DNA from: Solwaraspora sp. WMMD406
GTDB lineage: Bacteria > Actinomycetota > Actinomycetes > Mycobacteriales > Micromonosporaceae
DNA length: 64,000 nt
Assembly (NCBI RefSeq): GCF_029626025.1
Contig: NZ_JARUBF010000001.1
Location: 1,922,001 to 1,986,000, forward strand
Reading direction: 5' to 3'
The position numbers and the translations under genes were made by a program. Shown piece after piece: positions 46,937 to 64,000 of the stretch (positions within the stretch are counted from its first letter, which is position 1; each line of letters opens with the position of its first letter). The notes below the pieces were generated by a model, which saw nothing but the letters and a program-made list of their open reading frames with translations, was not told where the DNA came from and searched no databases.

Positions 46937-48688
46937 GTGAGCCGGGATTTCGACACGGTCGGTGTGGTGGGACTCGGCACCATGGGCGCCGGGATCGTCG
47001 AGGTCTTCGCCCGTAACGGGGTGTCGGTCGTGGCCGTGGAGATCAGCAATTCGGCCCTGGACCGGGGCCGGGGCAACCTCACCACCTCCACCGATCGCGC
47101 GGTCACCCGAGGCAAATTGAGCCCCACCGACCGGGACGCGCTGCACTCCCGGGTCACCTTCGCGGTCGGGCTCGACGCGCTGGGCGACGTCGACCTCGTC
47201 GTCGAGGCGGTACCCGAGCGACTCGACCTCAAGCGGCGGATCTTCACCGAGCTCGACCAGGTGTGCAAGCCCGCCGCGATCCTCGCCACCAACACCTCGT
47301 CGCTGAGCGTCACCGAGATCTCGGTCGCCACCCGCCGACCGGACCAGGTGATCGGGCTGCACTTCTTCAACCCCGCCCCGGTGATGAAGCTGGTCGAGGT
47401 GGTCCGCACCGTGGTCACCGCACCCGGTGTCGTCCACGACGTCGAAGCGCTCTGCGCCCGGCTGGGCAAGGTCGGCGTGACGATCGGCGACCGGGCCGGG
47501 TTCGTCGCCAACGCGCTGCTGTTCGGCTATCTCAACCAGGCGGTGGGCATGGTCGAGGCCGGGTACGCCTCCCGGGAGGACGTCGACCTCGCCGTACGGC
47601 TGGGGTGTGGGCTGCCGATGGGGCCGTTCGCGCTGCTCGACCTCATCGGCCTGGACACCGCGTACGAGATCCTCGACACGATGTACCGCCGGGGTGGGCG
47701 GGACCGCCGACACGCTCCGGCACCGCTGCTCCGGCAGATGGTCACCGCCGGAATGCTCGGACGCAAGTCCGGTGAGGGCTTCTATACCTACGAACGCCCT
47801 GGCTCGGCGGTGGTGGTGCCCGACGACCGGACGCCGGCCGCCGACGGCGTGCCGGCCACGTCGGCCGCACCGGACGCCGACGGCGCACGCGCCACCGTCC
47901 GTACCGTCGGGGTGGTGGGTTCCGGCGCGACGGCCGCCGGACTGGTCGAGGTCTTTCGCCGGGGCGGATTCGACGTCGTCTCGGTGACCCCCGCAGAGGA
48001 CGGCTCCGACCGGCTCGCCCGGTCGACCGCGTGGGAGCAGTTCGCCCGGTCGACCGCGTGGGAGCAACTCGCCGACGTCGATCTCGTCGTCGAAGCCGTG
48101 CCGGACGACCTCGGCGTCAAGCAGGAGATCTTCGCCCGGCTCGACGAGATCTGCCGACCCGGCGTGGTGCTCGCGACCACCACGGCCACGCTGCCGGTGA
48201 TCGACATCGCGATGGCCACCCGCCGGCCGGCGGACGTGCTCGGGCTGCACCTGCCCGGCCCGGCTCCGACGACGCGGCTGGTCGAGGTGGTGCGCACCAT
48301 CCGTACGGGCGGCCCGGCGGTGGAGACCGTCCGAGCGGTCTGCGCCGCGCTGGGAAAGACCGCGGTGATCTGTGGCGACCGGGCCGGCTTCATCGTCAAC
48401 GCCCTGCTGTTCCCGTACCTCAACGACGCGATTCGGATGGTGGCCGGCGGCTACTCGACGCCGGACGACATCGACGCGGCCATGACGCTCGGGTGCGGCT
48501 ACCCGACGGGTCCGTTCGAGCTGCTCGACACCGTCGGGCTGGACCACGCGCTCGGTGTCCAGCAGGCGCTCTACCGCCAGTCGCGTGAACCCGGGCTGGC
48601 GCCGGTGCCGCTGCTGCGCGACCTGGTGACCGCCGGTCGGCTGGGCCGCGAGACCCGACACGGGTTCCGCGACCACCGTGGCGACTGA
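46937..48688 (+). CDS. Two-lobed 3-hydroxyacyl-CoA dehydrogenase, second lobe degenerate
   Basis: 583 residues made of two homologous dehydrogenase units joined by an Ala/Pro/Asp linker (about 288-313). Lobe 1 is complete: VVGLGTMGAGIVEVF for NAD, TNTSSLSV, GLHFFNPAPVMKLVEVV (catalytic His and Glu) and GFVANALLF. Lobe 2 keeps His, Glu and Asn (GLHLPGPAPTTRLVEVV, GFIVNALLF), but TNTS is TTTA, the NAD loop is GSGATAAG and about 25 residues after the second strand are lost. There, a 27-bp tandem duplication encodes ARSTAWEQ twice. NAD binding by lobe 2 is doubtful. GTG 46937. Confidence 0.9.
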   Translation: MSRDFDTVGVVGLGTMGAGIVEVFARNGVSVVAVEISNSALDRGRGNLTTSTDRAVTRGKLSPTDRDALHSRVTFAVGLDALGDVDLVVEAVPERLDLKRRIFTELDQVCKPAAILATNTSSLSVTEISVATRRPDQVIGLHFFNPAPVMKLVEVVRTVVTAPGVVHDVEALCARLGKVGVTIGDRAGFVANALLFGYLNQAVGMVEAGYASREDVDLAVRLGCGLPMGPFALLDLIGLDTAYEILDTMYRRGGRDRRHAPAPLLRQMVTAGMLGRKSGEGFYTYERPGSAVVVPDDRTPAADGVPATSAAPDADGARATVRTVGVVGSGATAAGLVEVFRRGGFDVVSVTPAEDGSDRLARSTAWEQFARSTAWEQLADVDLVVEAVPDDLGVKQEIFARLDEICRPGVVLATTTATLPVIDIAMATRRPADVLGLHLPGPAPTTRLVEVVRTIRTGGPAVETVRAVCAALGKTAVICGDRAGFIVNALLFPYLNDAIRMVAGGYSTPDDIDAAMTLGCGYPTGPFELLDTVGLDHALGVQQALYRQSREPGLAPVPLLRDLVTAGRLGRETRHGFRDHRGD

Positions 48689-49977: not shown

Positions 49978-50031
49978 GTCGGCCGGGGGTGACGGGTCGG
50001 CCGGGGGTGACGGGTCAGCCGGGGGTGACGG
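49978..50031. repeat. 18-bp tandem repeat at the end of the GT2 gene
   Basis: Three units of GTCGGCCGGGGGTGACGG (49978-49995, 49996-50013, 50014-50031; the last with one change). The third unit includes the stop codon of the minus-strand glycosyltransferase gene, so repeat expansion began at a gene end. Confidence 0.85.
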
Positions 50032-50995
50032 TCGACGGCAGTTCGGTGGTGGGCCGCGCTTCGTCGAAGGGCGGATAGCCGGCGGCCCAGTCGCCTCGGG
50101 CCCGCCAGACGCCGACCCAGTCCACGCCCCGGGAGCGGTCGCGGCCCAGGACGGTCTTTCCGACGGCCCGGATACCGACGCCGGTGACCAGCATCGCCAC
50201 CCCGAGCTTGGCGCGCGTCGGCGACCAGTGCCGGCGCAGGTAGGTCGTCTTGCCGCGCAGGATCCGGATCCGCTGCCCTTCGGAACTGGACGAGGCACCA
50301 CCGACGTGGATCACCTTGGCGTCGGGGGTGACGAGCGGGCGGGCACCGAGCGCGCGGGCCCGGGTGCTCAGGTCGATGTCCTCGCTGTAGAGGAAGAACT
50401 GCGGGTCGAAGCCGCCGAGCCGGCCGAACAGGTCACGGTCGACCAGCAGCATGCAGCCGGAGAGCGCCGGCACCTCGCGGACGCTGCGCCGGTCGTAGTC
50501 GGGCAGCGCTTCCGGGTCGGCCCAGGCGCGTCCCCGGAACGCGGTCGTCAGCCCGCTGGCGAACCCGAAGGTGCTCCACAGGCTGGGCATGCCCCAGCAG
50601 GAGTAGTTGTCGTCGGTGCCGTCCGGGTGCAGCGTCCGGCCGGTGTACAGGCCGTGCCCGGGGTGGCCGTCGGCGAAGGTGACCAGCTGGGTCACCGGAT
50701 CACCGACCGGGACCGTGTCCGGATTGAGGAAGAGCAGGTAGCGACCGGAACTGGCCATGGCGCCGCGGTTGATGCCCCGGCCGAAGCCCACGTTCTCGGT
50801 GAGCCGCAGCAGGCGTACCTGCGGGAAGTTGGCGGCGACGGCATCGGCCGAGCCGTCGCCCGACGCGTTGTCGACGACCACGACCTCCGCCGTGACCTCG
50901 GGGGTCAGGCTGGCGTACAGCTCGGTCAGGCACCGTTGGATCAACTCGGCCGTGTTGTACGAGACGAGGATGATCGACACGTCCGGTCGGTTCAC
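50015..50995 (-). CDS. Family 2 glycosyltransferase (rhamnosyltransferase-like)
   Basis: 326 residues. GT-A fold: VSIILVSYNTAELIQRCL for the nucleotide sugar, EVVVVDNASGDGS, and the metal-binding region LLFLNPDTVPVG; the acceptor region has CMLLVDRDLFGRLGGFDPQFFLYSEDIDLSTRA, where ED is the likely catalytic base area. WbbL-like. GTG 50995 overlaps the stop of the WecG-type gene (GTGA), so they are coupled. A C-terminal stretch binds the membrane at most peripherally. Confidence 0.9.
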   Translation of the reverse strand: MNRPDVSIILVSYNTAELIQRCLTELYASLTPEVTAEVVVVDNASGDGSADAVAANFPQVRLLRLTENVGFGRGINRGAMASSGRYLLFLNPDTVPVGDPVTQLVTFADGHPGHGLYTGRTLHPDGTDDNYSCWGMPSLWSTFGFASGLTTAFRGRAWADPEALPDYDRRSVREVPALSGCMLLVDRDLFGRLGGFDPQFFLYSEDIDLSTRARALGARPLVTPDAKVIHVGGASSSSEGQRIRILRGKTTYLRRHWSPTRAKLGVAMLVTGVGIRAVGKTVLGRDRSRGVDWVGVWRARGDWAAGYPPFDEARPTTELPSTVTPG

Positions 50996-51942
50996 GAGCG
51001 TTTCCCGGTGCCGACCGGATCCCGGTGGTGCGCGGGCGGCGCCGTCCGGGGTGCCGGGATGCGCCGGACCGGCGGCACGGCCGGGGCGGGGGCGGTCCGC
51101 GCGTGGGCGCGACGGCGGAGCCGGTCGCGCACGCTGCCGGCGAGCAGACGCAGGGCGAACGGTACGTCGTGGATCAGGTAGCGGCGGACGAGTCGCTGCG
51201 GTTCGCCGAGGAGCCGGTGCACCCATTCGAGGCCGGTGCGTTGCATCCAGCGGGGTGCCCGCTGGTGTACTCCGGCGACGAAGCCGATCGCCGCGCCGCA
51301 GCCCATGAACCAGGTCCGCGGGAGCAGGGGGCGCAGGCGGGCGATCAGGCGTTCCTGCTTGGGGAAGCCAAGGCCGACGAAGACCAGGTCGGGCCGGGCG
51401 GCGGTGACCTCTGCGCAGATCTGGGCGAGTTGTTCCTCGGAGGTGTCGAAGCCGAACGGTGGGCTCAGCTCGCCGGCGACGGTGAGCCCGGGGAAGCGTT
51501 CGCGCAGTACGGCGGCGGCCAGCCGGGCGGTGCCGGGCTCGCCACCGAGCAGGTAGACCGATCGTCCGTGGTCGCCCAGGGCCGTGGACAGGCTCCAGAT
51601 GAGGTCGGATCCCGGGACCCGGGCCGGCAGTGGGTCACCGGCGATCCGGCTGGCCCAGATGAGAGGAGCGCCGTCGGCCACCACGAGAGATGATGACGCA
51701 ATGTGATTGCGGCATTCCTCTTCGTGATAGGCGCGCCGCAGGATGTCCACGTTGGGGGTGATGATCTGTCCCCCTTGGCCAGCGTCGAGTGCGGCCAGTA
51801 CGCGCTGGATGACGTCTTCTTCGCGAACCGGGTCGAAAGCGACACCACTAAGAGTGACGCGATGCCTATGCACGGTGATGAAGTCCAGATCCTGAGGCAC
51901 AGGAGCACGGTACTCGGCCATCTCGTCAGACGGACGGTCCAT
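50992..51942 (-). CDS. WecG/TagA/CpsF-family glycosyltransferase
   Basis: 316 residues, GT26 family: ITPNVDILRRA, VVADGAPLIWASRIAG...LPARVPGSDLIW and FVGLGFPKQERLIARL are the family motifs. These enzymes add the second sugar (for example ManNAc) to a lipid-linked first sugar. A basic Pro/Arg-rich tail (about 270-316) may attach it to the membrane. Start ATG 51942 or ATG 51921. The GT2 gene at 52019 starts divergently only 76 bp away. Confidence 0.9.
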   Translation of the reverse strand: MDRPSDEMAEYRAPVPQDLDFITVHRHRVTLSGVAFDPVREEDVIQRVLAALDAGQGGQIITPNVDILRRAYHEEECRNHIASSSLVVADGAPLIWASRIAGDPLPARVPGSDLIWSLSTALGDHGRSVYLLGGEPGTARLAAAVLRERFPGLTVAGELSPPFGFDTSEEQLAQICAEVTAARPDLVFVGLGFPKQERLIARLRPLLPRTWFMGCGAAIGFVAGVHQRAPRWMQRTGLEWVHRLLGEPQRLVRRYLIHDVPFALRLLAGSVRDRLRRRAHARTAPAPAVPPVRRIPAPRTAPPAHHRDPVGTGKRS

Positions 51943-52018
51943 CCCGTGTCAGCTAGGCGATAGTGAGGTTGTCCATTCGACTGGTTGCCGGGCCCCCTAC
52001 GGATGGAACCATCGTGCT

Positions 52019-52918
52019 GTGCAGATCACCGTCATCATGCCGGCCTACAACGAAGAAGTGGGGATCGGCGCGGTCTTGCGTGCGATGACCGAATCCCCGG
52101 GTTTCGGGCCCGACATCGAGATCGTCGTCGCCGCCAACGGCTGCACCGACGGTACGGCGGCGGTCGCGCGTTCCCGCGGCGTACGGGTGCTGGAGATCCC
52201 CACCCCGTCGAAGATCGCCGCGCTCAACGCCGCCGACCGGGTGGCCGGTGGCGACGTGCGGGTCTACCTGGACGCGGACATCGAGGTCTCCGCGGACCTG
52301 CTTCGGGCGCTCGCCGCCGCGATCGCGCAACCCGGGGCGGAGGCGGCGACCCCGCGTCCGGTGATCGACGCCTCGGCCAGCAGTTGGCCGGTGCGTTCCT
52401 ATTACGCGATCAATGCCCGCCTCCCGGTCTTCCGTGGACGGCTGTTCGGCCGGGGAGTGATCGCACTTTCTGCCGCTGCCCGTTCACGATTTACCGATTT
52501 TCCGGACATTATCGCGGACGACATGTTTCTCGACGCCGTGGTACGCGCTGACGAGAAGCGGGATGTCGATCTGCCGGTCCGCGTCCTCGCGCCCCGGCGT
52601 ACCGGTGAGTTGATCCGCCGGGTGGCCCGGTCACGCGCCGGCAATGCCGAATTCTGGCATTTCGTGCGCACCGATCCGCGTGGCGCCGAGTTGGCGCTCG
52701 ATCCAGTGCCCGGTTCGAGTCCCTTCTCCTGGTTGCGGCGTGTCGTTCTCTCCTCGCCACAGCTACTTCCCGCAGCGTTCTGTTACGTGGCCGTCACGGC
52801 CGCCGCCGAGCTCAAGCGGCGCTCTCCACGGTGGAACGTCCGATCCGGCTGGGGGCGTACCGAGGCTGGTGACGGCGTGACCGGCTCCGCGCCCGAGGCC
52901 GCCTCCGAACGCGGTTGA
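52019..52918 (+). CDS. Family 2 glycosyltransferase
   Basis: 299 residues. ITVIMPAYNEEVGIGAVLRAM, EIVVAANGCTDGTAAVAR and the metal-binding DADIEVS are the GT2 motifs. FPDIIADDMFLDAV contains a likely catalytic acidic pair. A late hydrophobic segment (SPQLLPAAFCYVAVTAAAEL) may be a membrane helix. GTG 52019 without a clear ribosome-binding site. The 3' end lies in a 24-bp repeat. Confidence 0.88.
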   Translation: MQITVIMPAYNEEVGIGAVLRAMTESPGFGPDIEIVVAANGCTDGTAAVARSRGVRVLEIPTPSKIAALNAADRVAGGDVRVYLDADIEVSADLLRALAAAIAQPGAEAATPRPVIDASASSWPVRSYYAINARLPVFRGRLFGRGVIALSAAARSRFTDFPDIIADDMFLDAVVRADEKRDVDLPVRVLAPRRTGELIRRVARSRAGNAEFWHFVRTDPRGAELALDPVPGSSPFSWLRRVVLSSPQLLPAAFCYVAVTAAAELKRRSPRWNVRSGWGRTEAGDGVTGSAPEAASERG

Positions 52919-52975
52919 CGAGGCCGCTCCGAGTGCGGTCGACAAGTCGTCTCCGAGCGCGGTCGACCCCGCCCG
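52907..52975. repeat. 24-bp imperfect tandem repeat at the end of the GT2 gene
   Basis: About three units resembling GAGTGCGGTCGACAAGTCGT plus four bases, starting inside the last codons of the glycosyltransferase gene (the stop TGA falls in unit 1) and running into the intergenic region. The remaining 210 bp to the next gene show nothing else. Confidence 0.65.
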
Positions 52976-53187
52976 TCGATTTCCGGCCGGCGCGCTCAAG
53001 TCGAGCGGAATTCACCATTGACGCCGTCGCGCGTGGGCGTCCCGCCCTGGTCGCGTTGCCATAAGAGACCATTAAGTTCCTTGGGATGCCCTGCGAGCTG
53101 GGTTACCGTCAGGCTCGGTCCCGCCCGGGCGGCATGATGTGCTGCCCTCGCGAGGGTCGGAGTGCCTGGGGGAGATCTACCAAATAG

Positions 53188-55329
53188 ATGGCAGTTGAAA
53201 GACTTGTCCCGAGAGGCGTACATCGCGTGGTGAGCAAGGACTTTTTCGAGCGGGACGGGGGGCGGGACGACATGCTCCCGGAATCGTCCAGGGATGCTTC
53301 GCCCGGTTCATCGGATTCCCGACGGGCCGCCAAACGGACGGTCGGTCGTCGGCGGCGCCCCACCGGCCTGCGGCGCCCTACCGGCCTGCGGCGCCCTACC
53401 GGCCTGCGGCGCCCTACCGGCCGGCGCGGCCGGCTGGTCATGATCGGGGCCGTCGTCCTCAGCTTCCTGGCCACCGCGGGGGTCGTGGTCACCGCCTCGG
53501 CGGCCAACCAGGAGATCGACGGCTACGCGTTCTTCGCCGAGACCGACGTCTCCCGGGTGCGGGTCGATCCGGACACCCGACCGGTGGAGCTCGGCTTGCG
53601 GTTCACCTCGACCAGTGACGGCACGATCACCGCTGTCCGCTTCCTCAAGGCCAAGGGCGACCGCAGTGCCCACCGGGTCAACGTCTGGGACGGCTTCGGC
53701 ACCAGATTGGCCACCGCGACCCCGAGGCGGGAGTCGCGCTCCGGTTGGCAGCACGTCGCGCTGCCCGAGCCGGTCGCGGTGACCGCCGGTCAGACCTACG
53801 TGGTGTCGTACCACACCGCCCGGTACCGGGCCACGCAGAGCTTCTTCGATCGGCAGCTGACCGCCGGTCCGCTGAGCACCGCCGGAACGGCCGGGGTGTA
53901 CGCGTACGGATCCGGCGGTTTCCCCGAGCAGACCTGGAAATCCAGCAACTACTGGGTCGACCTGGCGTTCCAACCGGCCGAGGAAGGCGGCGGCACCCGG
54001 CCGGACCCGGTGCCGAGCCCGACCGTCTCCGCGTCGCCGACCGCCGCGCCCAGCCCGAGCGCCAGCCCGGCACCCACCACCACGGCGCCGACCCCGTCGC
54101 CGTCGGCCCCCGGTGGCGGCGGTACGCCGGGCGCGCTCGACCTGCCCCGGGTGCCGTGGGAGGGCGGCCCCTCCTACTACGCGAACTTCCCGCAGGCCAA
54201 GGCGTCCGGCTGGAACAACCCTGGCTTCTTCCCGATCGGCGTCTGGTACGAGGGCGTCTACACCCAGGAGGAGATCGACCGCGACAAGGCGGCCGGGCTC
54301 AACACCTACGTGATGCTGACCGACCAGTCGGACGTCTCGCTGATCCGGCGCAACGGCATGTACGCCTTCATCCCGCAACCCTTCAGCAACCGGGGCAACG
54401 AAAGCGTCGGATGGGTCATCGGTGACGAGGCGGACATGTGGGGTGGTCCGGGCAACGGCACCTGGACCGGAAAGTACCCGGGCCAGGGTCAGATCTGCAC
54501 CACCACCCGCGAGGGCTGCGGGCTCGACGTCATGAAGAAGGAGTCGGCCACCGTACCGTCCGGGGACAAGGGCCTGCGGTACGCCAACTACGGCAAGGGC
54601 GTGATGTTCTGGCAGTCGGACAGCGACGCCAGCAAGTTTGTCAACGGGTTCAGCTCGGTGGTCTCGAACGACATCTACTGGTACACCGACCCGCACGTGT
54701 GCACCGCGCCCGCCGAGGGCCCGACGTACGGTGTCAACAAGGACAACTGCCGCCGTGCCGCCAACTACGGACTGACCATGGACCGGATGCGGGAGCTGGA
54801 CGCGATGGACGGCAAGCGCCAGCCGGTGTGGGCCTTCATCGAGGTCGGCCACCCCTTCACCGAGGACTGGGCGCCGACGATCACCGGTGACCAGATCGCT
54901 GGCGCCGTGATGAACTCGCTGATCCACGAGGCCCGAGGCATCCAGTACTTCAACCACAACTTCGGCGGCCCCTGCCACTCGCAGCACGTGCTGCGGGACC
55001 GTTGCGGCGACGCGGTCCGGCCGGCGGTGACCGAGTTGAACAAGCGGGTCACCAGCCTGGCGCCGGTGCTCAACACCCAGTCGTACGCCTGGGAGTTCAA
55101 CAGCGGTCTGGACACCATGCTCAAGGCGCACGACGGGTCGTACTACATCTTCGCGATGCTGAGCCGGGACACCGCGACCGGATCGCACACGCTGGCCCTG
55201 CCGCCCGGCGTGACCGGCAGCAAGGCCGAGGTGCTGTTCGAGAACCGCAGCGTTCCGATCAGCGGGGGAGCGATCAAGGACTCCTTTGCGCAGGAATTCA
55301 CCTACCACATCTACAAGATCACGCCATAG
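53188..55329 (+). CDS. Secreted DUF4082 protein with C-terminal glycoside-hydrolase-like domain
   Basis: 713 residues. Cytoplasmic N-terminus with four RRPTG repeats, a membrane helix or signal (about 83-105), one DUF4082 module (about 110-265: GYAFFAETDVSRVRVDPD ... NYWVDLAFQP) and a Pro/Ser/Thr linker (about 270-312). A ~400-residue domain beginning PWEGGPSYYANFPQ follows; its IGVWYEGVYTQEEI, WVIGDEADMW and WAFIEVGHPF look like a TIM-barrel glycosidase with candidate acidic residues, but I do not recognise the family. Start ATG 53188 with GGGGGAG 13 nt away; GTG 53230 (MSKDFFERDGG) is possible. Same direction as the polymer genes that follow. Confidence 0.75.
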   Translation: MAVERLVPRGVHRVVSKDFFERDGGRDDMLPESSRDASPGSSDSRRAAKRTVGRRRRPTGLRRPTGLRRPTGLRRPTGRRGRLVMIGAVVLSFLATAGVVVTASAANQEIDGYAFFAETDVSRVRVDPDTRPVELGLRFTSTSDGTITAVRFLKAKGDRSAHRVNVWDGFGTRLATATPRRESRSGWQHVALPEPVAVTAGQTYVVSYHTARYRATQSFFDRQLTAGPLSTAGTAGVYAYGSGGFPEQTWKSSNYWVDLAFQPAEEGGGTRPDPVPSPTVSASPTAAPSPSASPAPTTTAPTPSPSAPGGGGTPGALDLPRVPWEGGPSYYANFPQAKASGWNNPGFFPIGVWYEGVYTQEEIDRDKAAGLNTYVMLTDQSDVSLIRRNGMYAFIPQPFSNRGNESVGWVIGDEADMWGGPGNGTWTGKYPGQGQICTTTREGCGLDVMKKESATVPSGDKGLRYANYGKGVMFWQSDSDASKFVNGFSSVVSNDIYWYTDPHVCTAPAEGPTYGVNKDNCRRAANYGLTMDRMRELDAMDGKRQPVWAFIEVGHPFTEDWAPTITGDQIAGAVMNSLIHEARGIQYFNHNFGGPCHSQHVLRDRCGDAVRPAVTELNKRVTSLAPVLNTQSYAWEFNSGLDTMLKAHDGSYYIFAMLSRDTATGSHTLALPPGVTGSKAEVLFENRSVPISGGAIKDSFAQEFTYHIYKITP
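53353..53424. repeat. 18-bp coding repeat (RRPTGL x4)
   Basis: Four tandem units of CGGCGCCCTACCGGCCTG, the first and last with single changes, encode the basic RRPTGL repeats just before the membrane helix. Being in frame, copy-number changes would alter only the length of the positively charged cytoplasmic stretch. Confidence 0.9.
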
Positions 55330-55348
55330 CGGCGGTAACGGTTCGATC

Positions 55349-55389
55349 GATGGGCCGGGTGGACGCAGTTGCCGTCCACTCGGCCCATC
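55349..55389 (+). terminator. Terminator after the first DUF4082 gene
   Basis: A 16-bp stem (55349-55364 with 55374-55389) containing a single G-T pair closes a 9-nt loop GCAGTTGCC. It begins 19 bp after the stop codon. Confidence 0.85.
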
Positions 55390-55722
55390 TCTTGGTCGAC
55401 GAGGCGGCGGTCCTCCCTGTCGGCTTGCCGACCGGGGGCCGCCGTGGAGTCGGATTCCGCGCTGGTCATTGTGGGCCAGCAGAGCACTTTCAGCCGGTGC
55501 GCAAGCACGACGGCGCAGCTCAACGCGGGTCGACCGCTGCTCGATCGGGTGCCGTGGGGTCTGATCGGGGTAGCATCGCAGCCTTGCGGAGCGGGTCCAC
55601 GCGACCGGACACTGGAAGCGTTGGGCGGGTGCCACCCGGCGAAGCTGCGCGTAGCCGCCTCTGCGCTGCCCATACCATGGACTTCAACGCCTAGACCTCG
55701 TCGCCCCGATGGAAGGACAGCA
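55390..55722. other. Intergenic region upstream of the wzz-like gene
   Basis: 333 bp after the terminator without a gene that shows codon bias. GGTAGCAT (about 55569-55576) and CATACCAT (about 55671-55678) are possible -10 boxes. It should contain the promoter of the wzz-wzy pair. Confidence 0.55.
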
Positions 55723-56955
55723 GTGGACTTTTGGGACCTCACCAAACTGCTGTTCAGGCGGTGGTACATCGCGACGCCGTTGCTGTTGATCTCGGTAGCC
55801 GCCGCCGGTTGGACGGGAACGAGTGTCCAACCGGACTATATCGCGACATCGTACGTACAGCTGATCCCGCCGACCGCCGCGAACACGCCGCCGGACGAGG
55901 ACACCCCGGCCTCGCCGCGTAACCCCTGGCTGGAGCTGGGTCTCGGGTCGTTGAGCCGGGCCGCCGCGTTGACCGTCCAGGACCAGGCCGTGCTCAAGCA
56001 GTTGGAAGCGGACGGATTCAGCGAGAACGTGGCGATCACGCTCGACAACCAGCAGCCGATCATGACGATCGAGGTGATCGGGGAGTCCGCGGAGCAGGCC
56101 ACCGAAACGTCCGAGGAGGTCGTCCGGCGACTCGAAGCGAGCGTGGTCGGCCTGCAGGCCGACTACGGCGCGAACGAGGAGAGCTTCATCACCGCCCGGC
56201 GGCTCGACCGCGGTGACAACATCCAGGAGGCCAACTCCAAGGTCAAGCGGGCGATGGTGGCGGTCGGCGGGGTCGGCGTGCTGCTCAGCGCCGCGCTCAC
56301 CATCGGCTTCGACGGGCTGATGCGTCGGCGGCGGCGGGGACCGGCGACCGGCGTACCGGTGAGCACCGGACCTGGTTCCGACGACACCATGAAGCTTCCG
56401 TCGGGCACCGCCGTGGCGACTCCGGAGATCTCGATCCGCTACGCGCCGTCGACCCGGCGTCCGACGAGCACCGACGGTGGACATTCCGGCGGCGTCTACA
56501 GCTCGGGTAGCCGGTCCGAGCGGCCGGACGACGTGCCGTCCGGTGCCCAGGCCAACCGGGGCGGTATTCCCTTCCCACGGGTGGCGGGACGGCCGGCACC
56601 GGGTTCCGGCGCGGGCTCGTCCAGCGTCGGCGCGACCTCCGGCGCGGGTGCTAACCCGGGCGGCGACGCCCGTGGCGGTCCAGGCGGCCCGCCGCGCGGT
56701 GCGGCCGGTGGCGACACCGCCGGTTCCGGGCTGCCGTCGGCGGGCCGGGGCACCGGGCCGCAGCCGGCGGGCGACAAAGCCGGGCAACCCGCCGACTCCG
56801 GCGGCTCGCGGGTGCCGAGGTCCCCGGACGCCGACGAGACCGCGGTGATCAGCGCGGTGCCGGCCGAAGACGCGACGATCATCCTCCCGATTCCTCCGGT
56901 CGGCCGGGACTCCTGGACCTCGGAGGTCTCCGAGAACGGGAGCCGGACGCGGTGA
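55723..56955 (+). CDS. Wzz-like polysaccharide co-polymerase
   Basis: 410 residues from GTG 55723 (GGAAGGAC about 6 nt upstream). Layout of a chain-length regulator: short cytoplasmic N-terminus MDFWDLTKLLFRRWY, membrane helix 1 (about 16-34), extracytoplasmic helical domain to about 185, and membrane helix 2 (MVAVGGVGVLLSAALTIGF). A ~200-residue disordered Gly/Ser/Pro-rich cytoplasmic tail follows. There is no Walker motif, so no fused tyrosine kinase. The stop overlaps the polymerase start by 4 bp (GTGA), so the two act together. Confidence 0.82.
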   Translation: MDFWDLTKLLFRRWYIATPLLLISVAAAGWTGTSVQPDYIATSYVQLIPPTAANTPPDEDTPASPRNPWLELGLGSLSRAAALTVQDQAVLKQLEADGFSENVAITLDNQQPIMTIEVIGESAEQATETSEEVVRRLEASVVGLQADYGANEESFITARRLDRGDNIQEANSKVKRAMVAVGGVGVLLSAALTIGFDGLMRRRRRGPATGVPVSTGPGSDDTMKLPSGTAVATPEISIRYAPSTRRPTSTDGGHSGGVYSSGSRSERPDDVPSGAQANRGGIPFPRVAGRPAPGSGAGSSSVGATSGAGANPGGDARGGPGGPPRGAAGGDTAGSGLPSAGRGTGPQPAGDKAGQPADSGGSRVPRSPDADETAVISAVPAEDATIILPIPPVGRDSWTSEVSENGSRTR

Positions 56956-58325
56956 CCCAGTCCGGGTTGCACCCGGCGGACCTGGAGCCGTCCTGGATCG
57001 GCGAGCGGACGTACGTCACCCGGCGACGGCTGACCCGGATCGACGCGCCGGTGCTGTTGTCGCTGATGATCTGCCTGCTCACCCTGATGCCGGCCCATCT
57101 CATCCTGCCCGGCATGACCGATCTCGGGCGTCCGGCGTTGGTCGTCGCTTTGCTGATGTGGTTCTGGTGGATGACCGCCCGGCTCAACTCCCGGCTCGTA
57201 CTCACCGGCCCGCAGCCGCTGCGCTGGGCGGTGCTCGCGTTCCTGCTGTCGATGCTGCTGTCGTACGCGATCGGGTTTCTGCGCGGGCTGACGATGATGG
57301 AAGCCAACTCGGCCGATCGGTGGATGCTCACGGCGGCGGCGATCTCCGGGGTGATCCTGCTGACCGCCGACGGGATGCCCAACTGGCAGCGGCTCGAAGG
57401 CGTACTGCGGGTCTTCGTCTACTGCTGCGCCTTCGTCGCGGTGATCGGGCTCATCCAGGCGTTCCTCTATCTCGACCTCACCCAGTACATGCGGATTCCC
57501 GGTCTGGAGATGAAGGGCTGGGTGGTCGGGCTGGAGATCCGGGGTGGCGGGGTCCGGGTGCCGAGCACCACCTTCCACTACATCGAGTTCAGCCTGCTGA
57601 TGGCGATGGCGCTGCCGTTCGGCATCCACTTCGCCAGGTTTGCCCAGACCCCTCGGCAGCGTCAGCTGTTCGGCTTCCTGGCCCTGCTGATCGCGGCGGC
57701 GATCCCGGCCACCATGTCCCGTACCGGGTTCGTCGCGCTCGGCATCGTGCTGCTGGTGCTGATGCCGATCTGGGGGTGGCGGATGCGGTACAACATGCTG
57801 GCCCTCGGCGCTGTCATGCTCGCCGGCATGGTGGTCGTCAAGCCAGCCCTGGTCAGCACCATCTCGACGATGTTCCTCGGGGCGAGCAGCGATCCGAGCA
57901 TCACCTCGCGCACCGAGCGGTACGACATGGTCGGCTACTACTTCAACCAGCGGCCCTGGTTCGGTCGCGGCACCGGCACCTGGGTCTCGCCGCAATATCA
58001 GTATCTCGACAATCAATGGCTGGCGTTCGCTCTCACCAACGGAATCATCGGTGTGATCGTGCTCGCCGGCCTGCATCTGAGCGCCATCGCACTCGTCATC
58101 GTCGCCCGGCGTCGCTCGTCGTCAGAGCGCGAACGGCACCTTTGTACGATTCTCATCGCCGTTCAGCTGGTCGCGATCGCCGCTGGGTTCACCTTCGACT
58201 CGCTGAGCTTCAGCACCTACGCGACCGCCATGTCGCTGATGGTCGGCCTCTGTGGTGCGGTGTGGCGACTCAGTCACCCGGCGTTGATGATCCGTACGTC
58301 GACCCCGAGATGGTTCGGGGCCTGA
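56952..58325 (+). CDS. O-antigen polymerase/ligase-like protein (Wzy/WaaL family)
   Basis: 457 residues with about 11 membrane helices and the large extracytoplasmic loop near the end (TSRTERYDMVGYYFNQRPWFGRGTGTW), where the R-x-x-x-W and GxG pattern matches the Wzy_C/O-antigen ligase family. It would polymerise or ligate lipid-linked repeat units outside the membrane. GTG start overlaps the wzz-like gene. Confidence 0.88.
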   Translation: MTQSGLHPADLEPSWIGERTYVTRRRLTRIDAPVLLSLMICLLTLMPAHLILPGMTDLGRPALVVALLMWFWWMTARLNSRLVLTGPQPLRWAVLAFLLSMLLSYAIGFLRGLTMMEANSADRWMLTAAAISGVILLTADGMPNWQRLEGVLRVFVYCCAFVAVIGLIQAFLYLDLTQYMRIPGLEMKGWVVGLEIRGGGVRVPSTTFHYIEFSLLMAMALPFGIHFARFAQTPRQRQLFGFLALLIAAAIPATMSRTGFVALGIVLLVLMPIWGWRMRYNMLALGAVMLAGMVVVKPALVSTISTMFLGASSDPSITSRTERYDMVGYYFNQRPWFGRGTGTWVSPQYQYLDNQWLAFALTNGIIGVIVLAGLHLSAIALVIVARRRSSSERERHLCTILIAVQLVAIAAGFTFDSLSFSTYATAMSLMVGLCGAVWRLSHPALMIRTSTPRWFGA

Positions 58326-58510
58326 GCTGATCCGTCGGCCGCCGACGCCCCTTCGCGTATCCACAGTGGTGTTTCTGACTCCACGTTCAGCGCAATTATC
58401 CATTGATCTCGTTGTCCGTCGGGGTGCGTGATTCCGGACGGTCATGCCCGCCTGTCCGAAGGGCTGATCCCGGCCCGACCGGCGTCGACACAGGCGGTAT
58501 GCATGCCTGG

Positions 58511-58538
58511 TTGTGAGCTGGACTCGCACTGGTAGCGT
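58511..58538 (+). promoter_or_regulatory. Promoter candidate for the large DUF4082 gene
   Basis: TTGTGA (58511-58516), 16-bp spacer, TAGCGT (58533-58538), about 65 bp before the GTG. The -10 is the same TAGCGT used by the SPFH promoter candidate. Confidence 0.5.
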
Positions 58539-58603
58539 CGGCGCTGCCATAGCCCGGGGGACACGCGGGACATCCGCGTCGGGCGGCTCCTGGAGGGAGT
58601 GCA

Positions 58604-61600
58604 GTGAGGGCGGTCGCATCTGTTCTGACCCGCCGGGTCAACCGGCGGATCGGTTCCGTCGCCATGGCGGCGACGCTGTTCGTGAGTCTCGTGGTCGCCA
58701 TGCCCGCTGCGTCGGCGGCCGCTGATCCCTGCGCCCCTCCCGTGAACGTCATCGCCTGTGAGAACAGCAAACCGGGCACGCCGAAGTCGGCCTGGGACAT
58801 CTGGCAGGTCGGTGACCCGACCATTCAGGGTTTCGCCACCGAGATCACCGTCAACGTGGGCGGACAGGTCGGGTTCAAGGTGACCACCGACGCGCCGGGC
58901 TACACCATCAAGATCTACCGCCTCGGCTGGTACGGCGGCGACGGCGCGCGCGAGTGGGCGACCCTGCAGCCGAGCCTGCCGCTGGCCGACAACTCGCCCG
59001 AGGACTGCGTACACGCCCAGGACACCCAGTTGTTCGACTGCGGGACCTGGGAAGTCGGCACCACCTGGAACGTGCCGGTCGACGCGGTCTCCGGCGTCTA
59101 CATCGCCCGGCTGATCCGTTCGGACACCGGCGGCGACAGCCACGTCCCGTTCATCGTCCGCGACGACAGCAGCACCTCCCAGATGGTCTTCCAGACCTCC
59201 GACACCACCTGGCAGGCGTACAACACCTACGGTGGGGCCAGCTTCTACGAGGGCGCGGCACCGGTCAATCGCGCCTACAAGCTCAGCTACAACCGGCCGT
59301 TCGCCACCCGCGCGGTGGGCAACGGACGAGACTATCTGTTCGCCAACGAATACCCGATGATCCGATTCCTGGAACGCAACGGGTACGACGTGAGCTACAT
59401 CAGCGGTCTCGACGCGGACATTCGCGGTGATCTGCTGCTCAACCATCAGGCGTACGTCTCGGTCGGGCACGACGAGTACTGGTCGCCGCAGCAACGGGCC
59501 AACGTCGAAGCCGCCCGCGACGCCGGCGTGCACCTCGCCTTCTTCACCGGCAACGAGGTCTATTGGAAGACCCGCTGGGAAAACAGCGTCGACGGCAACG
59601 GCACGCCGTACCGGACGCTGGTCTGTTACAAGGAGACCTGGGCCGGCGCGGACATCGACCCGACCGACGAATGGACCGGGGTCTGGCGGGATCCGCGGTT
59701 CCCGACCGGCGAGGTGCGCGAGCCGGAGAACTCCCTGGTCGGCAACCTCTACATGGCCAACAACACCGACCTCGCCATGCAGGTCCCGGCAGAACAGGGC
59801 AAGCTGCGCTTCTGGCGCAACAGCGGGGTCGCCGGCCTGACCCCGGGGCAGACCGCCACCCTTGCCCCGCACACAGTCGGCTACGAGTCCAACGAGGACC
59901 TCGACAACGGCTTCCGGCCACCGGGCACCTTCCGGCTGTCCACCACCACCGGCTACACCCCGGAGTACCTCGTCGGCTACGGTCCGGACGTCGAGGAGGG
60001 TGAGACCACCCACCACATGACCCTGTACCGGGCGGCCAGCGGCGCGCTCGTCTTCGGGGCCGGCACCATCCAGTGGTCCTGGGGCCTCGACGCCGTCCAT
60101 GACGGCGGTTCCGGCGCGTCGGCCGACCCGAACATCCAGCAGGCCACCGTCAACCTCTTCGCCGACATGGGCGTCGCGCCGACCACCCCGATGGCCGGGA
60201 TCATGGTCACCGGACCGTCCACCGACGCACTCGCCCCGACCGCCAGCATCACCGCTCCGGTCGACGGCACCGCAGTCGCCCACGGGTCGCTGGTGACCGT
60301 GACCGGTTCGGCGATGGACGCCGGTGGCGGCCTCGTCGCCGGGGTCGAGGTGTCCACCAACGGCGGTGCCACCTGGCATCCCGCCACCACCGGCACCTCC
60401 ACCTGGACCTACCAATTCCACGCCAGCGACACCTCCGCGCACACCCTGCTGGCCCGGGCGGTCGACGACAGCGGAAACCTCGGCGACCCGTCGGCACCGG
60501 TCGGTCTGTCGGTGAACGGCCCCTACACACTGTTCGGTGAGCGGGTACCGGACCACCCGGTGTTCGTCGAGAAGGATCCGCAGACCGGCATCGCCCTGGA
60601 TCCCCAGCCGGAGGTGGAACTCGGCGTACGGTTCACCCCGCAGATCGACGGCCTGATCACCGGGCTGCGGTTCTACAAGGGCGAAGGCAACGTCGGCACC
60701 CACCGGGGCACGCTGTGGACCAACGGCGGCACCGAGCTCGCCTCGGCGACCTTCACCGACGAGAGTGGCACCGGCTGGCAGCAGGTCGGGTTCGCCACGC
60801 CCGTACCGGTCTCGGCCGGCACCAGCTACGTGGCGTCCTATCGGGCGCCGCAGGGCCACTACGCCAGCGACCCGGGCTTCTTCACCACCGATCACCTGTC
60901 CGGGCCACTGATGGCACCCAAGACCGACGGTGCCGTCGGCAACGGCCTCTACCGGTACGACGGCGGGTTCCCCAACCAGTCGTACGGGGGCGCCAACTAC
61001 TACGTCGACGTCACCTTCGTCACGGCGGAGAATGCCCCGCCGTCGGTGTCGACGACCGTACCGACCGGCAACGCGGCGAACGTGCCGACCGACCAGGCGC
61101 CGTCGGCTGTCTTCTCCAAGCCGGTCGACGACGCGACGATCGCGTTCGACCTGGTCGACGGGGACGGCCAGCCGGTGCCCGGCACGGTCGACTACGACGA
61201 GACCGCCCGGCGGGCCACCTTCACGCCGGCCGTACCGCTCGCCGAGGCCACCACGTACACCGCGACCGTGCTGGCCAGCGACGACGTCGGGGTACCGATG
61301 GGCGCGCCGTACTCGTGGTCGTTCACCACCGAGTTCTCCCAGCAGGTGGTAACCCTGTTCGAGACCGACGCCGTACCCGAGGTGACCTCGACCGGCGAGA
61401 ACACTGCGGTCGAGGTGGGGGTCAAGTTCACCCCGGCGGTGGACGGGCAGGTCGTGGGGATGCGGTTCTTCCGGGGGCCGGGTAACACGGGTAGTCAGGT
61501 GGGTCGGTTGTGGCCGGTGGGTGGGGGGAGCCCGTTGGCGGAGGTGACGTTCCCGGAGGGGTCGACGACGGGGTGGCAGTCGGCGGCGTTCGGGCAGCCG

Positions 61601-63313
61601 GTGTCGGTGTCGGCGGGTACGACGTACGTGTTGTCGTACTACGCGCCGAACGGCAACTACGCCTACGACACCGGGTTCTTCAGCTCGGCGCACAGCCGGG
61701 GTCCGCTGAGCGCGCCGAGCGGCGACAACGGCGTCTACACCTACGACGGTGGAATCCCGAGCCTCAGCTACAACTCGGCCAACTACTGGGTCGACCCGTA
61801 CTTCCTGCCCAGCGGTGACCAGCCGACGCCGACCCCCACGCCGACCACCGGTCCCGGTGCGCCGACGGTGACCGCGACCGATCCGGTCGCGGCCGCCGCC
61901 GAGGTCCAGCCGGACACCACGGTGTCGGTGGTCTTCTCCGCCGACACCGGTGACGCGACGATCGAGTTCATGCTGTTCGATTCGACCGACACCCCGGTGC
62001 CCGGCACCGTCGACTACGACGCCTCGACCCGGATGGCCACCTTCACCCCGACCGCCCCGTTGGACCAGATGACCAGTTACACCGCGTCGGTACGGGTCGT
62101 CGTCTCCGGTGGCGCCGCGATGGGCGCACCGTACACCTGGTCGTTCACCACCACGTTCACCGATGAGGTGGTGACCCTGTTGGAGCCGGACGGGCTGCCG
62201 CAGCAGTCGTCCTCCGGGGACAGCACCGCCGTGGAGCTCGGCATGCGGTTCACGCCGGCGGTGGACGGGCAGGTCGTGGGGATGCGGTTCTTCCGGGGGC
62301 CGGGTAACACGGGTAGTCAGGTGGGTCGGTTGTGGCCGGTGGGTGGGGGGAGCCCGTTGGCGGAGGTGACGTTCCCGGAGGGGTCGACGACGGGGTGGCA
62401 GTCGGCGGCGTTCGGGCAGCCGGTGTCGGTGTCGGCGGGTACGACGTATGTGTTGTCGTACTACGCGCCGAACGGCAACTACGCCTTCGACGGCGGGTTC
62501 TTCAGTTCGGCGTACAGCCGGGGTCCGTTGAGCGCACCGGGCGGTGCCAATGGTCTCTACCGCTACGGACCCGGCGGCGGGTTCCCCACCGAGAGCTACA
62601 ACTCGGCCAACTACTGGGTGGATCCGTTGTTCCTGCCGGCCGGCAGTGGCGGCCCGGCACCGGATCCGGACGCCAGCCCGTCGCCGGGCACACCCGGGCC
62701 GTCCCCGGACCCGACGCCGAGCGGTTCGGCCTCGCCGACCGCGTCGCCGTCACCGAGCGCCTCGCCTTCGGCGTCGCCCAGCGCCAGCGCGTCGCCGGAG
62801 CCGACGGCGTCGCCGGGCCCGACCGAGCCGTTGCCGCCGGTGAGCATCTTCGGTCCGGAGGACGTGCCGCAGAGCGCCAGTTGGGCGGACACCGACGCGG
62901 TCGAGGTGGGCGTCCGGTTCCGGGCCGACGTGCCCGGTACGGTCACCGGGGTCCGGTTCTACAAAGGTCCGGGCAACACCGGCACCCATCGTGGTTCGAT
63001 CTGGACCGCCGACGGCGTACGGCTGGCGACCGCCGTGTTCACCGACGAGACGGAGTCGGGCTGGCAGACGGTGACGTTCGACCAGCCGGTGCCGATCCTG
63101 GCCGACACCACCTACGTGGCCTCCTACCACACCTCCGTCGGGCAGTACGCGGTGACGGCGAACCAGTTCGCCACCGAGGAACTCGATCGGGCACCATTGC
63201 ACGTGCTGGTCGGCGGTGGCGCCTACCACTACGACCCGTACGGCTGGGTGTTCCCCGGCTATTCGGTCAATCACAACTACTGGGTGGATGTCGTGTTCAC
63301 GCCTAACTCTTGA
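58604..63313 (+). CDS. Large secreted multidomain protein: DUF6605-like catalytic region, Ig-like domains and four DUF4082 modules
   Basis: 1,569 residues. GTG 58604 has GGAGGGAG 4 nt upstream. Signal peptide 1-40 (ending ASAAADPC). Residues ~45-530 match the N,N-dimethylformamidase beta-subunit-like/DUF6605 region (SAWDIWQVGDPTIQGFATEI, YRLGWYGGDGAR, VGHDEYWSPQQRANVEAARDAGVHLAFFTGNEVYWKTRWE). Ig-like domains lie at ~545-640, ~808-905 and ~1080-1170. DUF4082 modules lie at ~640-805, ~910-1065, ~1170-1335 and ~1425-1569, the last after a Pro/Ser/Ala linker. DUF4082 probably binds glycans; the N-terminal region's reaction is unknown. Likely acts on the polymer made by neighbouring genes. Confidence 0.85.
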   Translation: MRAVASVLTRRVNRRIGSVAMAATLFVSLVVAMPAASAAADPCAPPVNVIACENSKPGTPKSAWDIWQVGDPTIQGFATEITVNVGGQVGFKVTTDAPGYTIKIYRLGWYGGDGAREWATLQPSLPLADNSPEDCVHAQDTQLFDCGTWEVGTTWNVPVDAVSGVYIARLIRSDTGGDSHVPFIVRDDSSTSQMVFQTSDTTWQAYNTYGGASFYEGAAPVNRAYKLSYNRPFATRAVGNGRDYLFANEYPMIRFLERNGYDVSYISGLDADIRGDLLLNHQAYVSVGHDEYWSPQQRANVEAARDAGVHLAFFTGNEVYWKTRWENSVDGNGTPYRTLVCYKETWAGADIDPTDEWTGVWRDPRFPTGEVREPENSLVGNLYMANNTDLAMQVPAEQGKLRFWRNSGVAGLTPGQTATLAPHTVGYESNEDLDNGFRPPGTFRLSTTTGYTPEYLVGYGPDVEEGETTHHMTLYRAASGALVFGAGTIQWSWGLDAVHDGGSGASADPNIQQATVNLFADMGVAPTTPMAGIMVTGPSTDALAPTASITAPVDGTAVAHGSLVTVTGSAMDAGGGLVAGVEVSTNGGATWHPATTGTSTWTYQFHASDTSAHTLLARAVDDSGNLGDPSAPVGLSVNGPYTLFGERVPDHPVFVEKDPQTGIALDPQPEVELGVRFTPQIDGLITGLRFYKGEGNVGTHRGTLWTNGGTELASATFTDESGTGWQQVGFATPVPVSAGTSYVASYRAPQGHYASDPGFFTTDHLSGPLMAPKTDGAVGNGLYRYDGGFPNQSYGGANYYVDVTFVTAENAPPSVSTTVPTGNAANVPTDQAPSAVFSKPVDDATIAFDLVDGDGQPVPGTVDYDETARRATFTPAVPLAEATTYTATVLASDDVGVPMGAPYSWSFTTEFSQQVVTLFETDAVPEVTSTGENTAVEVGVKFTPAVDGQVVGMRFFRGPGNTGSQVGRLWPVGGGSPLAEVTFPEGSTTGWQSAAFGQPVSVSAGTTYVLSYYAPNGNYAYDTGFFSSAHSRGPLSAPSGDNGVYTYDGGIPSLSYNSANYWVDPYFLPSGDQPTPTPTPTTGPGAPTVTATDPVAAAAEVQPDTTVSVVFSADTGDATIEFMLFDSTDTPVPGTVDYDASTRMATFTPTAPLDQMTSYTASVRVVVSGGAAMGAPYTWSFTTTFTDEVVTLLEPDGLPQQSSSGDSTAVELGMRFTPAVDGQVVGMRFFRGPGNTGSQVGRLWPVGGGSPLAEVTFPEGSTTGWQSAAFGQPVSVSAGTTYVLSYYAPNGNYAFDGGFFSSAYSRGPLSAPGGANGLYRYGPGGGFPTESYNSANYWVDPLFLPAGSGGPAPDPDASPSPGTPGPSPDPTPSGSASPTASPSPSASPSASPSASASPEPTASPGPTEPLPPVSIFGPEDVPQSASWADTDAVEVGVRFRADVPGTVTGVRFYKGPGNTGTHRGSIWTADGVRLATAVFTDETESGWQTVTFDQPVPILADTTYVASYHTSVGQYAVTANQFATEELDRAPLHVLVGGGAYHYDPYGWVFPGYSVNHNYWVDVVFTPNS
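61433..61664 (+). repeat. 232-bp near-identical repeat, copy A (in DUF4082 module 2)
   Basis: Identical to 62255-62486 except for one base (61627 C versus T). The block encodes AVDGQVVGMRFFRGPGNTGS and on to the NYA segment. Its codons are GTG/GGG/GGT/TTG/CCG rich, whereas flanking codons mostly end in C. Confidence 0.95.
62255..62486 (+). repeat. 232-bp near-identical repeat, copy B (in DUF4082 module 3)
   Basis: Second copy, 822 bp downstream and in frame. Outside the block, modules 2 and 3 diverge much more, so the identity reflects a recent conversion or duplication event rather than the age of the modules. Confidence 0.95.
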
Positions 63314-63383
63314 AGCTGGTTCCGGTCAGGCCGTTGAATCATCCGCAGGGGTGGCAACTGCCGCCGGCGTCGAAGGGATATCC

Positions 63384-64000
63384 GTGCGCATCCTCACCTG
63401 CCTGCACACGCTCGAGATCGGCGGCACCCAGATCAACGCCATCGAGATCGCGGCGACCGTCGCCCAACTCGGGCACGAGGTGATCATTTACGGTCCGGAC
63501 GGCGAACTGCGGAGCATGATCGACAAGTGGGGACTGGAGTTCGTACCGGCACCCCCGAAGGGGGAGGCGCCCTCGCCGCGTAACGTCGCCGCGATCGCCG
63601 ACGTGGTGCGGCGTCGCGGCATCGACCTGGTGCACGCCTACGAGTGGGCGCCTACCCTGGAGACCGCGTACGGTGCCTACCTGCGCCAGGGCGTCCCGCT
63701 GGTGGTGACGGTGCTCTCCATGGAGGTGCCGGCCTGGGTGCCCCGCCATCTGCCGCTGATCGTCGGCACCGAGCAGATCGCGGCGCAGGAGCGGCCGCAC
63801 CGGGCCGAGGTGCACGTGATCGAGCCACCGATCGACACGACGGCCAACGCCCCGGTGGTGGATCCGGCCGCCGTCGAGGCGGCCCGGCGCGGCCTCGGGG
63901 TGGCCGCCGACGAACTCGCGGTGGTCTCGGTGTCCCGGCTGGTGCCGGAGCTCAAACTGGAAGGGCTGCTCGCCGCCACCCGGGCGATGGGTCGGCTCGA
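63384..64000 (+). CDS. Family 4 glycosyltransferase, N-terminal part (cut by window end)
   Basis: 205 codons from GTG 63384 (GAAGGG 6 nt upstream), open to the window end. MRILTCLHTLEIGGTQINAIEIAATVAQLGHEV is the GT-B N-terminal strand-loop-helix with the G-G-x-x loop. LVHAYEWAPTLETAYGAYLRQGVPLVVTV completes the acceptor domain, and VVSVSRLVPELKLEGLLAATRAMGRL begins the nucleotide-sugar domain where family members read R-x-x-x-x-K. It continues the polysaccharide locus. Confidence 0.88.
   Translation, partial: MRILTCLHTLEIGGTQINAIEIAATVAQLGHEVIIYGPDGELRSMIDKWGLEFVPAPPKGEAPSPRNVAAIADVVRRRGIDLVHAYEWAPTLETAYGAYLRQGVPLVVTVLSMEVPAWVPRHLPLIVGTEQIAAQERPHRAEVHVIEPPIDTTANAPVVDPAAVEAARRGLGVAADELAVVSVSRLVPELKLEGLLAATRAMGRL

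Follow-up and report, generated by a model that had tools for sequence, protein, structure and literature searches.

DUF4082 modules as candidate polymer-binding tethers of a predicted iron amidase and a glycosidase-like protein in an exopolysaccharide locus of Solwaraspora

Modules of the family DUF4082 (PF13313) are carried by two large secreted-looking proteins, P4 and P7, that are encoded among the polysaccharide genes of Solwaraspora sp. WMMD406 (genome size 7.16 Mb), in a stretch of DNA here called the window (positions 1-64,000, to which the coordinates below refer). With somewhat less than even confidence, we propose that DUF4082 is a polymer-binding β-sandwich that tethers an iron amidase (P7) and a glycosidase-like enzyme (P4) to the polysaccharide made by their own locus. 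Both proteins would be secreted and would then bind the nascent or finished polymer through DUF4082. The four modules of P7, set on Ig-like spacers, would hold its DMFA2_C domain (with an iron site of two tyrosines and one glutamate) on the polymer, where it would remove N-acyl groups from amino-sugar residues after export, while P4, held by a single module, would trim or release chains. Together the two proteins suggest an undescribed trimming of the polymer after its synthesis. The original prediction had also raised polymer display as a role, but nothing was found in its favour, and enzyme tethering fits better.

The five DUF4082 modules that had been claimed for these two proteins were confirmed, all far above cut-off (162-171 bits against 28.4), and are the genome's only matches in a profile search at E 0.001. 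The one module that was modelled forms a β-sandwich, which in a fold search resembles lectin-like and other β-sandwiches, several of them from polymer-acting enzymes. It comes closest to the Cwp84 lectin-like domain, which we take to be PF18560, with PHR domains of eukaryotic proteins close behind. As is characteristic of a carbohydrate-binding module (CBM), the predicted sandwich is joined to domains that look enzymatic, by predicted structure and Pfam. Cwp84 being a surface-layer protease, these leading matches lend something to a different and quite improbable account, in which the partner of DUF4082 is not the polymer but a protein or the cell wall, so that the enzymes are anchored on the cell's exterior; yet the fold also matches, at lower Z, enzymes that act on polymers (polyvinyl alcohol esterase, carbohydrate esterases) and CBM32, and DUF4082 is common to proteobacteria and actinobacteria, whose cell walls are unlike.

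Alike in sequence and in fold, DUF4082 and the eukaryotic PHR domain may possibly share an origin; in one related locus (L080, 9176-12736) the whole-protein PHR score lies above cut-off, though no single stretch passes. A likeness to WD-40 design proteins was rejected because the matching stretches, a short repeated motif, score below 7 bits each and because the model predicts a sandwich. Right-handed β-helix domains are joined to DUF4082 in four loci on contigs carrying Wzy_C genes (Pfam Beta_helix above cut-off in L118 and below it in L119; L116 and L121 by eye), and are perhaps lyases or hydrolases. Our alignment of DUF4082 (A3) holds 95 of 279 modules, of which 164 remained after near-duplicate removal. 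In the literature covered, which takes in few subscription papers or bioRxiv preprints, DUF4082 is named once, as a table entry, PF13313 never, and no paper combines dimethylformamidase, polysaccharide and glycosyltransferase.

P7 consists of a signal peptide, DMFA2_C, a Big_7 domain, DUF4082, two Big_5-DUF4082 units and a last DUF4082; P4 consists of a signal-like N-terminal helix, one DUF4082, a linker rich in Pro, Ser and Thr, and the glycosidase-like domain. Both look secreted and unanchored because each has a single hydrophobic N-terminal segment (a signal-like helix at residues 16-34 in P7) followed by an Ala-rich signal-peptidase-type site, judged by eye, with nothing else above threshold.

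The dimethylformamidase-like region of the original prediction is DMFA2_C (PF20254), well above cut-off and with its active-site residues kept. A profile of the domain, built from 29 of 78 sequences (alignment A2), matches just two kinds of protein in the PDB, both amidases. Y206, Y215, H289 and E291 of P7 align to Y399, Y440, H519 and E521 of N,N-dimethylformamidase (DMFase; 6lvb), the match to Y399 lying in a weak stretch of the alignment (0.2 bits) that is consistent with the acylase alignment, and the four residues are invariant in 78/78 DMFA2_C sequences. The available part of the DMFase study reports that iron is bound by Y399, Y440 and E521, that H519 is required, and that the Y440A, E521A and H519A variants are inactive (PMC7686228). 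By these residues the domain is likely to be an active iron amidase. It would act on amides of the locus polymer, a substrate guessed from gene context. P7 has no match to the CE4 polysaccharide deacetylase family (PF01522) at E 0.001. PDB sequence matches of P7 to sulfite oxidase (in the Ig-like part) and citrate synthase are noise.

Gene context is also what bears on a second account of P7, unlikely in our view, as a secreted enzyme that cleaves small soluble amides or peptides, a DMFase-like nitrogen scavenger that DUF4082 merely parks in the cell's own slime. To judge by their names, both PF20254-type proteins in the PDB have small amides as substrates (for DMFase, PMC7686228), and some stand-alone DMFA2_C proteins that carry this site occur away from Wzy_C. 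A general scavenger, however, would need no linkage to polymer genes, whereas fused DMFA2_C, unlike the stand-alone form, tracks Wzy_C and DegT closely: DegT lies within 20 kb of DUF4082-fused DMFA2_C in 12/14 cases against 3/16 for stand-alone DMFA2_C, pieces on one contig being counted once and the stand-alone set including contig-end or split pieces (G020 C2, C171; G041 C135) that are possibly fused in the whole contig.

The C-terminal 393 residues of P4 matched neither Pfam nor any PDB sequence at E 10, so that the claim of a glycosidase-like domain stands on other grounds. E414 and E552 are invariant in 23/23 aligned relatives (from 26 segments, three short ones being left out), and we assume by analogy that they are the catalytic pair of a clan GH-A-like glycoside hydrolase. 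A low-confidence model of the domain has 50/50 listed PDB matches that are, by their titles, glycoside hydrolases or other sugar-active barrel enzymes. The domain, which belongs to an unclassified family, is thus probably glycosidase-like as far as a model can tell, and would cut glycosidic bonds. Matches of the Arg/Pro-rich P4 N-terminus to HIV envelope proteins in the PDB search are noise. A second glycosidase-like protein, without DUF4082, lies in the same locus 4.6 kb past the window end (L007, 4624-6042). G357 and five members of the window's genus, among them the window's own genome, have both copies. Another relative (L008, 1746-3509) has its middle part missing or unrecognised; this broken copy was left out of alignment A4, which holds 5 of 6 relatives.

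Association of DUF4082 with polysaccharide genes had been put forward as a check of the idea, and it holds in actinobacteria. In a class sample of 148 genomes DUF4082 is matched in 21 and above cut-off in 19 (G035 and G115 being left out of the counts), while 0/14 well-known control genomes have a match. Counting Wzy_C above cut-off (33/38 rows), a Wzy_C gene lies within 20 kb of DUF4082 in 12/19 genomes against 0.38 expected when Wzy_C is placed at random and clustering is ignored; in 200,000 such draws at most 5 genomes were linked. A thirteenth genome has its Wzy_C at 20.04 kb and two further ones at 23 kb. With DegT added (minus its three weakest rows), Wzy_C or DegT is found within 20 kb in 16/19 genomes, the exceptions being G063, G064 and G079. 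The family sample has DUF4082 in 26/101 genomes; leaving aside the window's own, 20/25 have Wzy_C within 20 kb against 0.68 expected on the same terms, with representative DUF4082 positions for each cluster, Wzy_C above cut-off, a split match (G366 C33) excluded, and two fragmented genomes (G340, G426) in which absent linkage may reflect contig breaks. Some of the species are relatives and so do not count independently (G041, G134 and G144 are of one genus, and G371, G397, G416 and G430 of the window's), and because the class and family samples share several of the named genomes, the class, family and named-genome counts are not mutually independent; a Wzy_C listing for 50 named genomes was kept out of the counts because its contig numbers could not be matched reliably to the loci.

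Around P7-like proteins the picture is similar. Among 81 loci, namely the best 80 of 363 relatives (a choice biased toward P7-like proteins, with two locus pairs sharing one genome each) and the window, 78 carry a DMFA2_C open reading frame (ORF); the exceptions are L080, L087 and L035, the last truncated where its contig ends. In 78/78, DMFA2_C is N-terminal of 1 to 6 DUF4082 modules. The fusion is also present in 13/19 genomes of the class sample, which was not picked by similarity to P7. At least three polysaccharide classes occur within about 10 kb in 55/66 actinobacterial loci and at least one in 63/66 (taxon groups were assigned by hand), against 0/20 control windows, one of which has an ABC exporter; the controls were at hand-chosen positions, five in each of four genomes, and their gene classes were called by blastp with clusters that had been built from the DUF4082 loci, a bias in favour of those loci. 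Genes for amino sugars are enriched as well: DegT accompanies Wzy_C genes in 9/12 cases with DUF4082 and in 5/21 without.

Such linkage, about thirtyfold above expectation in both samples, tells against a very improbable and already disfavoured account in which P7 and P4 degrade foreign polysaccharides as food and lie near Wzy genes by chance or hitch-hiking. Fusions of CBMs to enzymes are indeed usual among polysaccharide degraders, and one MFS transporter gene lies downstream, though it is the only uptake gene among the ORFs scanned. A further account, which we consider distinctly unlikely, makes P7 and P4 structural matrix proteins or adhesins whose DUF4082 arrays cross-link the polymer, the enzyme-like domains being inactive or minor. 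It draws on the Ig-like spacers, which are typical of surface proteins, and on the variable number of modules per DMFA2_C protein. Two P7 modules are recent duplicates as well: the tandem Big_5-DUF4082 units at 61130-61809 and 61952-62637 share 82% DNA identity over 688 bases, which points to a fairly recent duplication. Elsewhere DUF4082 is joined to RCC1 repeats (L122, L123) and an ice-binding-like domain (PF11999; L063, 8801-10930). Inactive domains would not be expected to keep, as these do, the DMFase residues in every sequence and both glycosidase-like glutamates in every aligned relative.

Outside actinobacteria the association is of another kind. In proteobacterial loci, genes for a peptidase-containing ABC exporter or HlyD lie beside the protein in 9/11 cases (L042, L050, L058, L066, L070, L071 and L084-L086; also in the cyanobacterial L068), and the DMFA2_C-DUF4082 proteins there probably leave the cell by type I secretion. 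Export routes of the protein seem to differ between phyla, with its tie to polymer synthesis being actinobacterial. That DUF4082 is exclusive to polysaccharide loci is refuted by these secretion genes and is contradicted too by G064 and G079, in which a weaker DUF4082 with RCC1 repeats lies 23 kb from Wzy_C. An alphaproteobacterial sample, reached via the Microvirga genome G180, has DUF4082 in 2/142 genomes, G180 among them, too few to count.

Several observations weigh against tethering to the locus polymer. Polysaccharide neighbours are mostly missing from the proteobacterial loci (at least three classes in 1/11, at least one in 6/11). The fold matches of DUF4082 also take in PHR and SUN domains and virion and chlamydial proteins, for some of which we know of no sugar binding; a common fold, here that of a model, proves no function. 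The large subunit of DMFase is inactive without the small subunit, according to the available part of that study (PMC7686228). Stand-alone DMFA2_C proteins keep all four residues in 8/8 examined (of 16), and the site is therefore probably a family trait that does not name the substrate. DegT suggests that amino sugars are made, but not that the polymer retains their N-acyl groups. Finally, a canonical CE4 deacetylase gene is found no more than 20 kb from DUF4082 in 6/19 genomes, three of them of one genus (from eight rows chosen by eye as nearest to DUF4082), so that some loci may hold another deacetylase; the window itself has a CE4 deacetylase-like gene at 42043-42474 (-), 11.5 kb before P4 and past housekeeping genes. 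De-N-acetylation may thus occur in some of these polymers, with DMFA2_C not always the sole candidate.

Table 1. Genes, domains and predicted site residues of the polysaccharide locus within the window
Feature	Position	Strand	Basis
GT2 glycosyltransferase	50015..51226	-	PF00535 71.7 bits, cut-off 23.3
WecG/TagA/CpsF family glycosyltransferase	50992..51942	-	PF03808 196 bits; TIGR00696 141.3 bits, cut-off 69
GT2 glycosyltransferase	52019..52918	+	PF00535 65 bits
P4, secreted-looking protein, 713 aa	53188..55329	+	Pfam, hydropathy, alignment
DUF4082 module of P4	53557..53958	+	PF13313 162.7 bits
Glycosidase-like domain, P4 321-713 (393 aa)	54148..55326	+	Invariant D413-E414, E552; low-confidence model
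Wzz-like membrane protein, 410 aa	55723..56955	+	Chain-length role by shape only
Wzy_C family polymerase/ligase	56952..58325	+	PF04932 56.7 bits, cut-off 31.7; seven hydrophobic segments
P7, secreted-looking protein, 1569 aa	58604..63313	+	Pfam; hydropathy
DMFA2_C amidase-like domain	58904..60091	+	PF20254, E 1.4e-103, 347.6 bits, cut-off 27
Predicted iron-site codons	59219..59476	+	Y206 (59219), Y215 (59246), H289 (59468), E291 (59474)
Big_7 Ig-like domain	60236..60448	+	PF17957 34.7 bits
DUF4082 module of P7	60599..61006	+	169.2 bits
Big_5 Ig-like domain, better of two matches	61031..61330	+	PF13205
DUF4082 module of P7	61370..61792	+	162.4 bits
DUF4082 module of P7, structure-modelled one	62195..62620	+	170.9 bits; pLDDT 97.3
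DUF4082 module of P7	62861..63286	+	168.7 bits
GT4 glycosyltransferase	63216..64000, ORF to 64598	+	PF13692 on part beyond window end

The locus (Table 1) bears out the glycosyltransferases and the Wzy-like protein of the original prediction, with GT2, WecG/TagA/CpsF, GT2 and Wzy_C all above cut-off. The label Wzz-like comes from the protein's shape (a hydrophobic N-terminus, judged by eye, and one strong segment further on, by hydropathy) and from homologues that form one cluster across 10 loci, the window included; the protein has no match in Pfam or NCBIfam, and its homologue in L008 has none in Pfam. The gene likely starts at GTG 55723 rather than TTG 55369, and the true start of the GT4 gene is probably some way inside its ORF, 63216-64598. 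The locus seems to extend about 14.5 kb past the window end, through GT4, a flippase (PF13440, 182.6 bits), GT2, GT4, the second glycosidase-like protein, DUF6492, the MFS protein, a NeuD-type acetyltransferase fused to DegT, a second DegT, an epimerase/dehydratase and a Gfo/Idh enzyme. With both Wzy_C and flippase genes it has the makeup of a Wzx/Wzy-type polysaccharide locus; an initiating sugar-phosphate transferase (PF02397) is absent among the ORFs scanned in and near the window, the wider genome not having been searched for it. The acetyltransferase (172.5 bits, NCBIfam cut-off 160.8) was the sole sugar-nucleotide pathway model tried to pass cut-off, and the sugar made is probably an N-acetylated amino sugar. 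The best-matching relatives of the locus include Micromonospora, Actinoplanes and others. Upstream, a single ORF at 46937-48688 has tandem 3-hydroxyacyl-CoA dehydrogenase halves (PF02737 and PF00725, two stretches each).

DUF4082 thereby gains a modelled fold, enzyme-like partners and a testable role, an unusual iron amidase emerges as a candidate for tailoring bacterial polymers, and an unclassified glycosidase-like family is marked out. Deacetylation is described as important for biofilm polymers in the available parts of three papers (PMC6307706, PMC7229062, PMC4817252), and a new type of enzyme would therefore serve biofilm and polymer work. More speculatively, and with clear doubt on our part, DMFase-type iron amidases may make up a large and so far unrecognised class of enzymes that de-N-acylate polysaccharides outside the cell (not CE4, CE18 or CE21), clamped to their polymer by DUF4082 arrays, partnered by glycoside hydrolases of a new family, and forming a Gram-positive counterpart of the maturation enzymes PelA and PgaB.

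Among known systems, the Cwp84 lectin-like domain and the PHR domain (PF08005) share about 10% identity with DUF4082, which differs here in forming arrays on enzymes. CBM32, fucose-binding modules and the CBM of FjoAcXE are weak matches to the model, and the N-terminal domain of polyvinyl alcohol esterase, whose substrate is a synthetic polymer, has 7% identity. The DMFA2_C profile matches the DMFase large subunit and N-acetyl-(R)-β-phenylalanine acylase, with the four DMFase residues kept; whereas those amidases use small amides, P7 is secreted-looking, fused to Ig-like and DUF4082 domains, and encoded in polysaccharide loci. PelA, which in the available part of its source deacetylates and hydrolyses the Pel polysaccharide (PMC12022489), likewise couples a de-N-acylase (a CE21 deacetylase) with a glycoside hydrolase domain outside the cytoplasm. 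The window differs in having two separate proteins, DMFA2_C in place of the CE domain, a DUF4082 tether, and a Wzx/Wzy-type locus instead of a synthase system, and we regard the likeness to PelA as a working analogy, not as homology.
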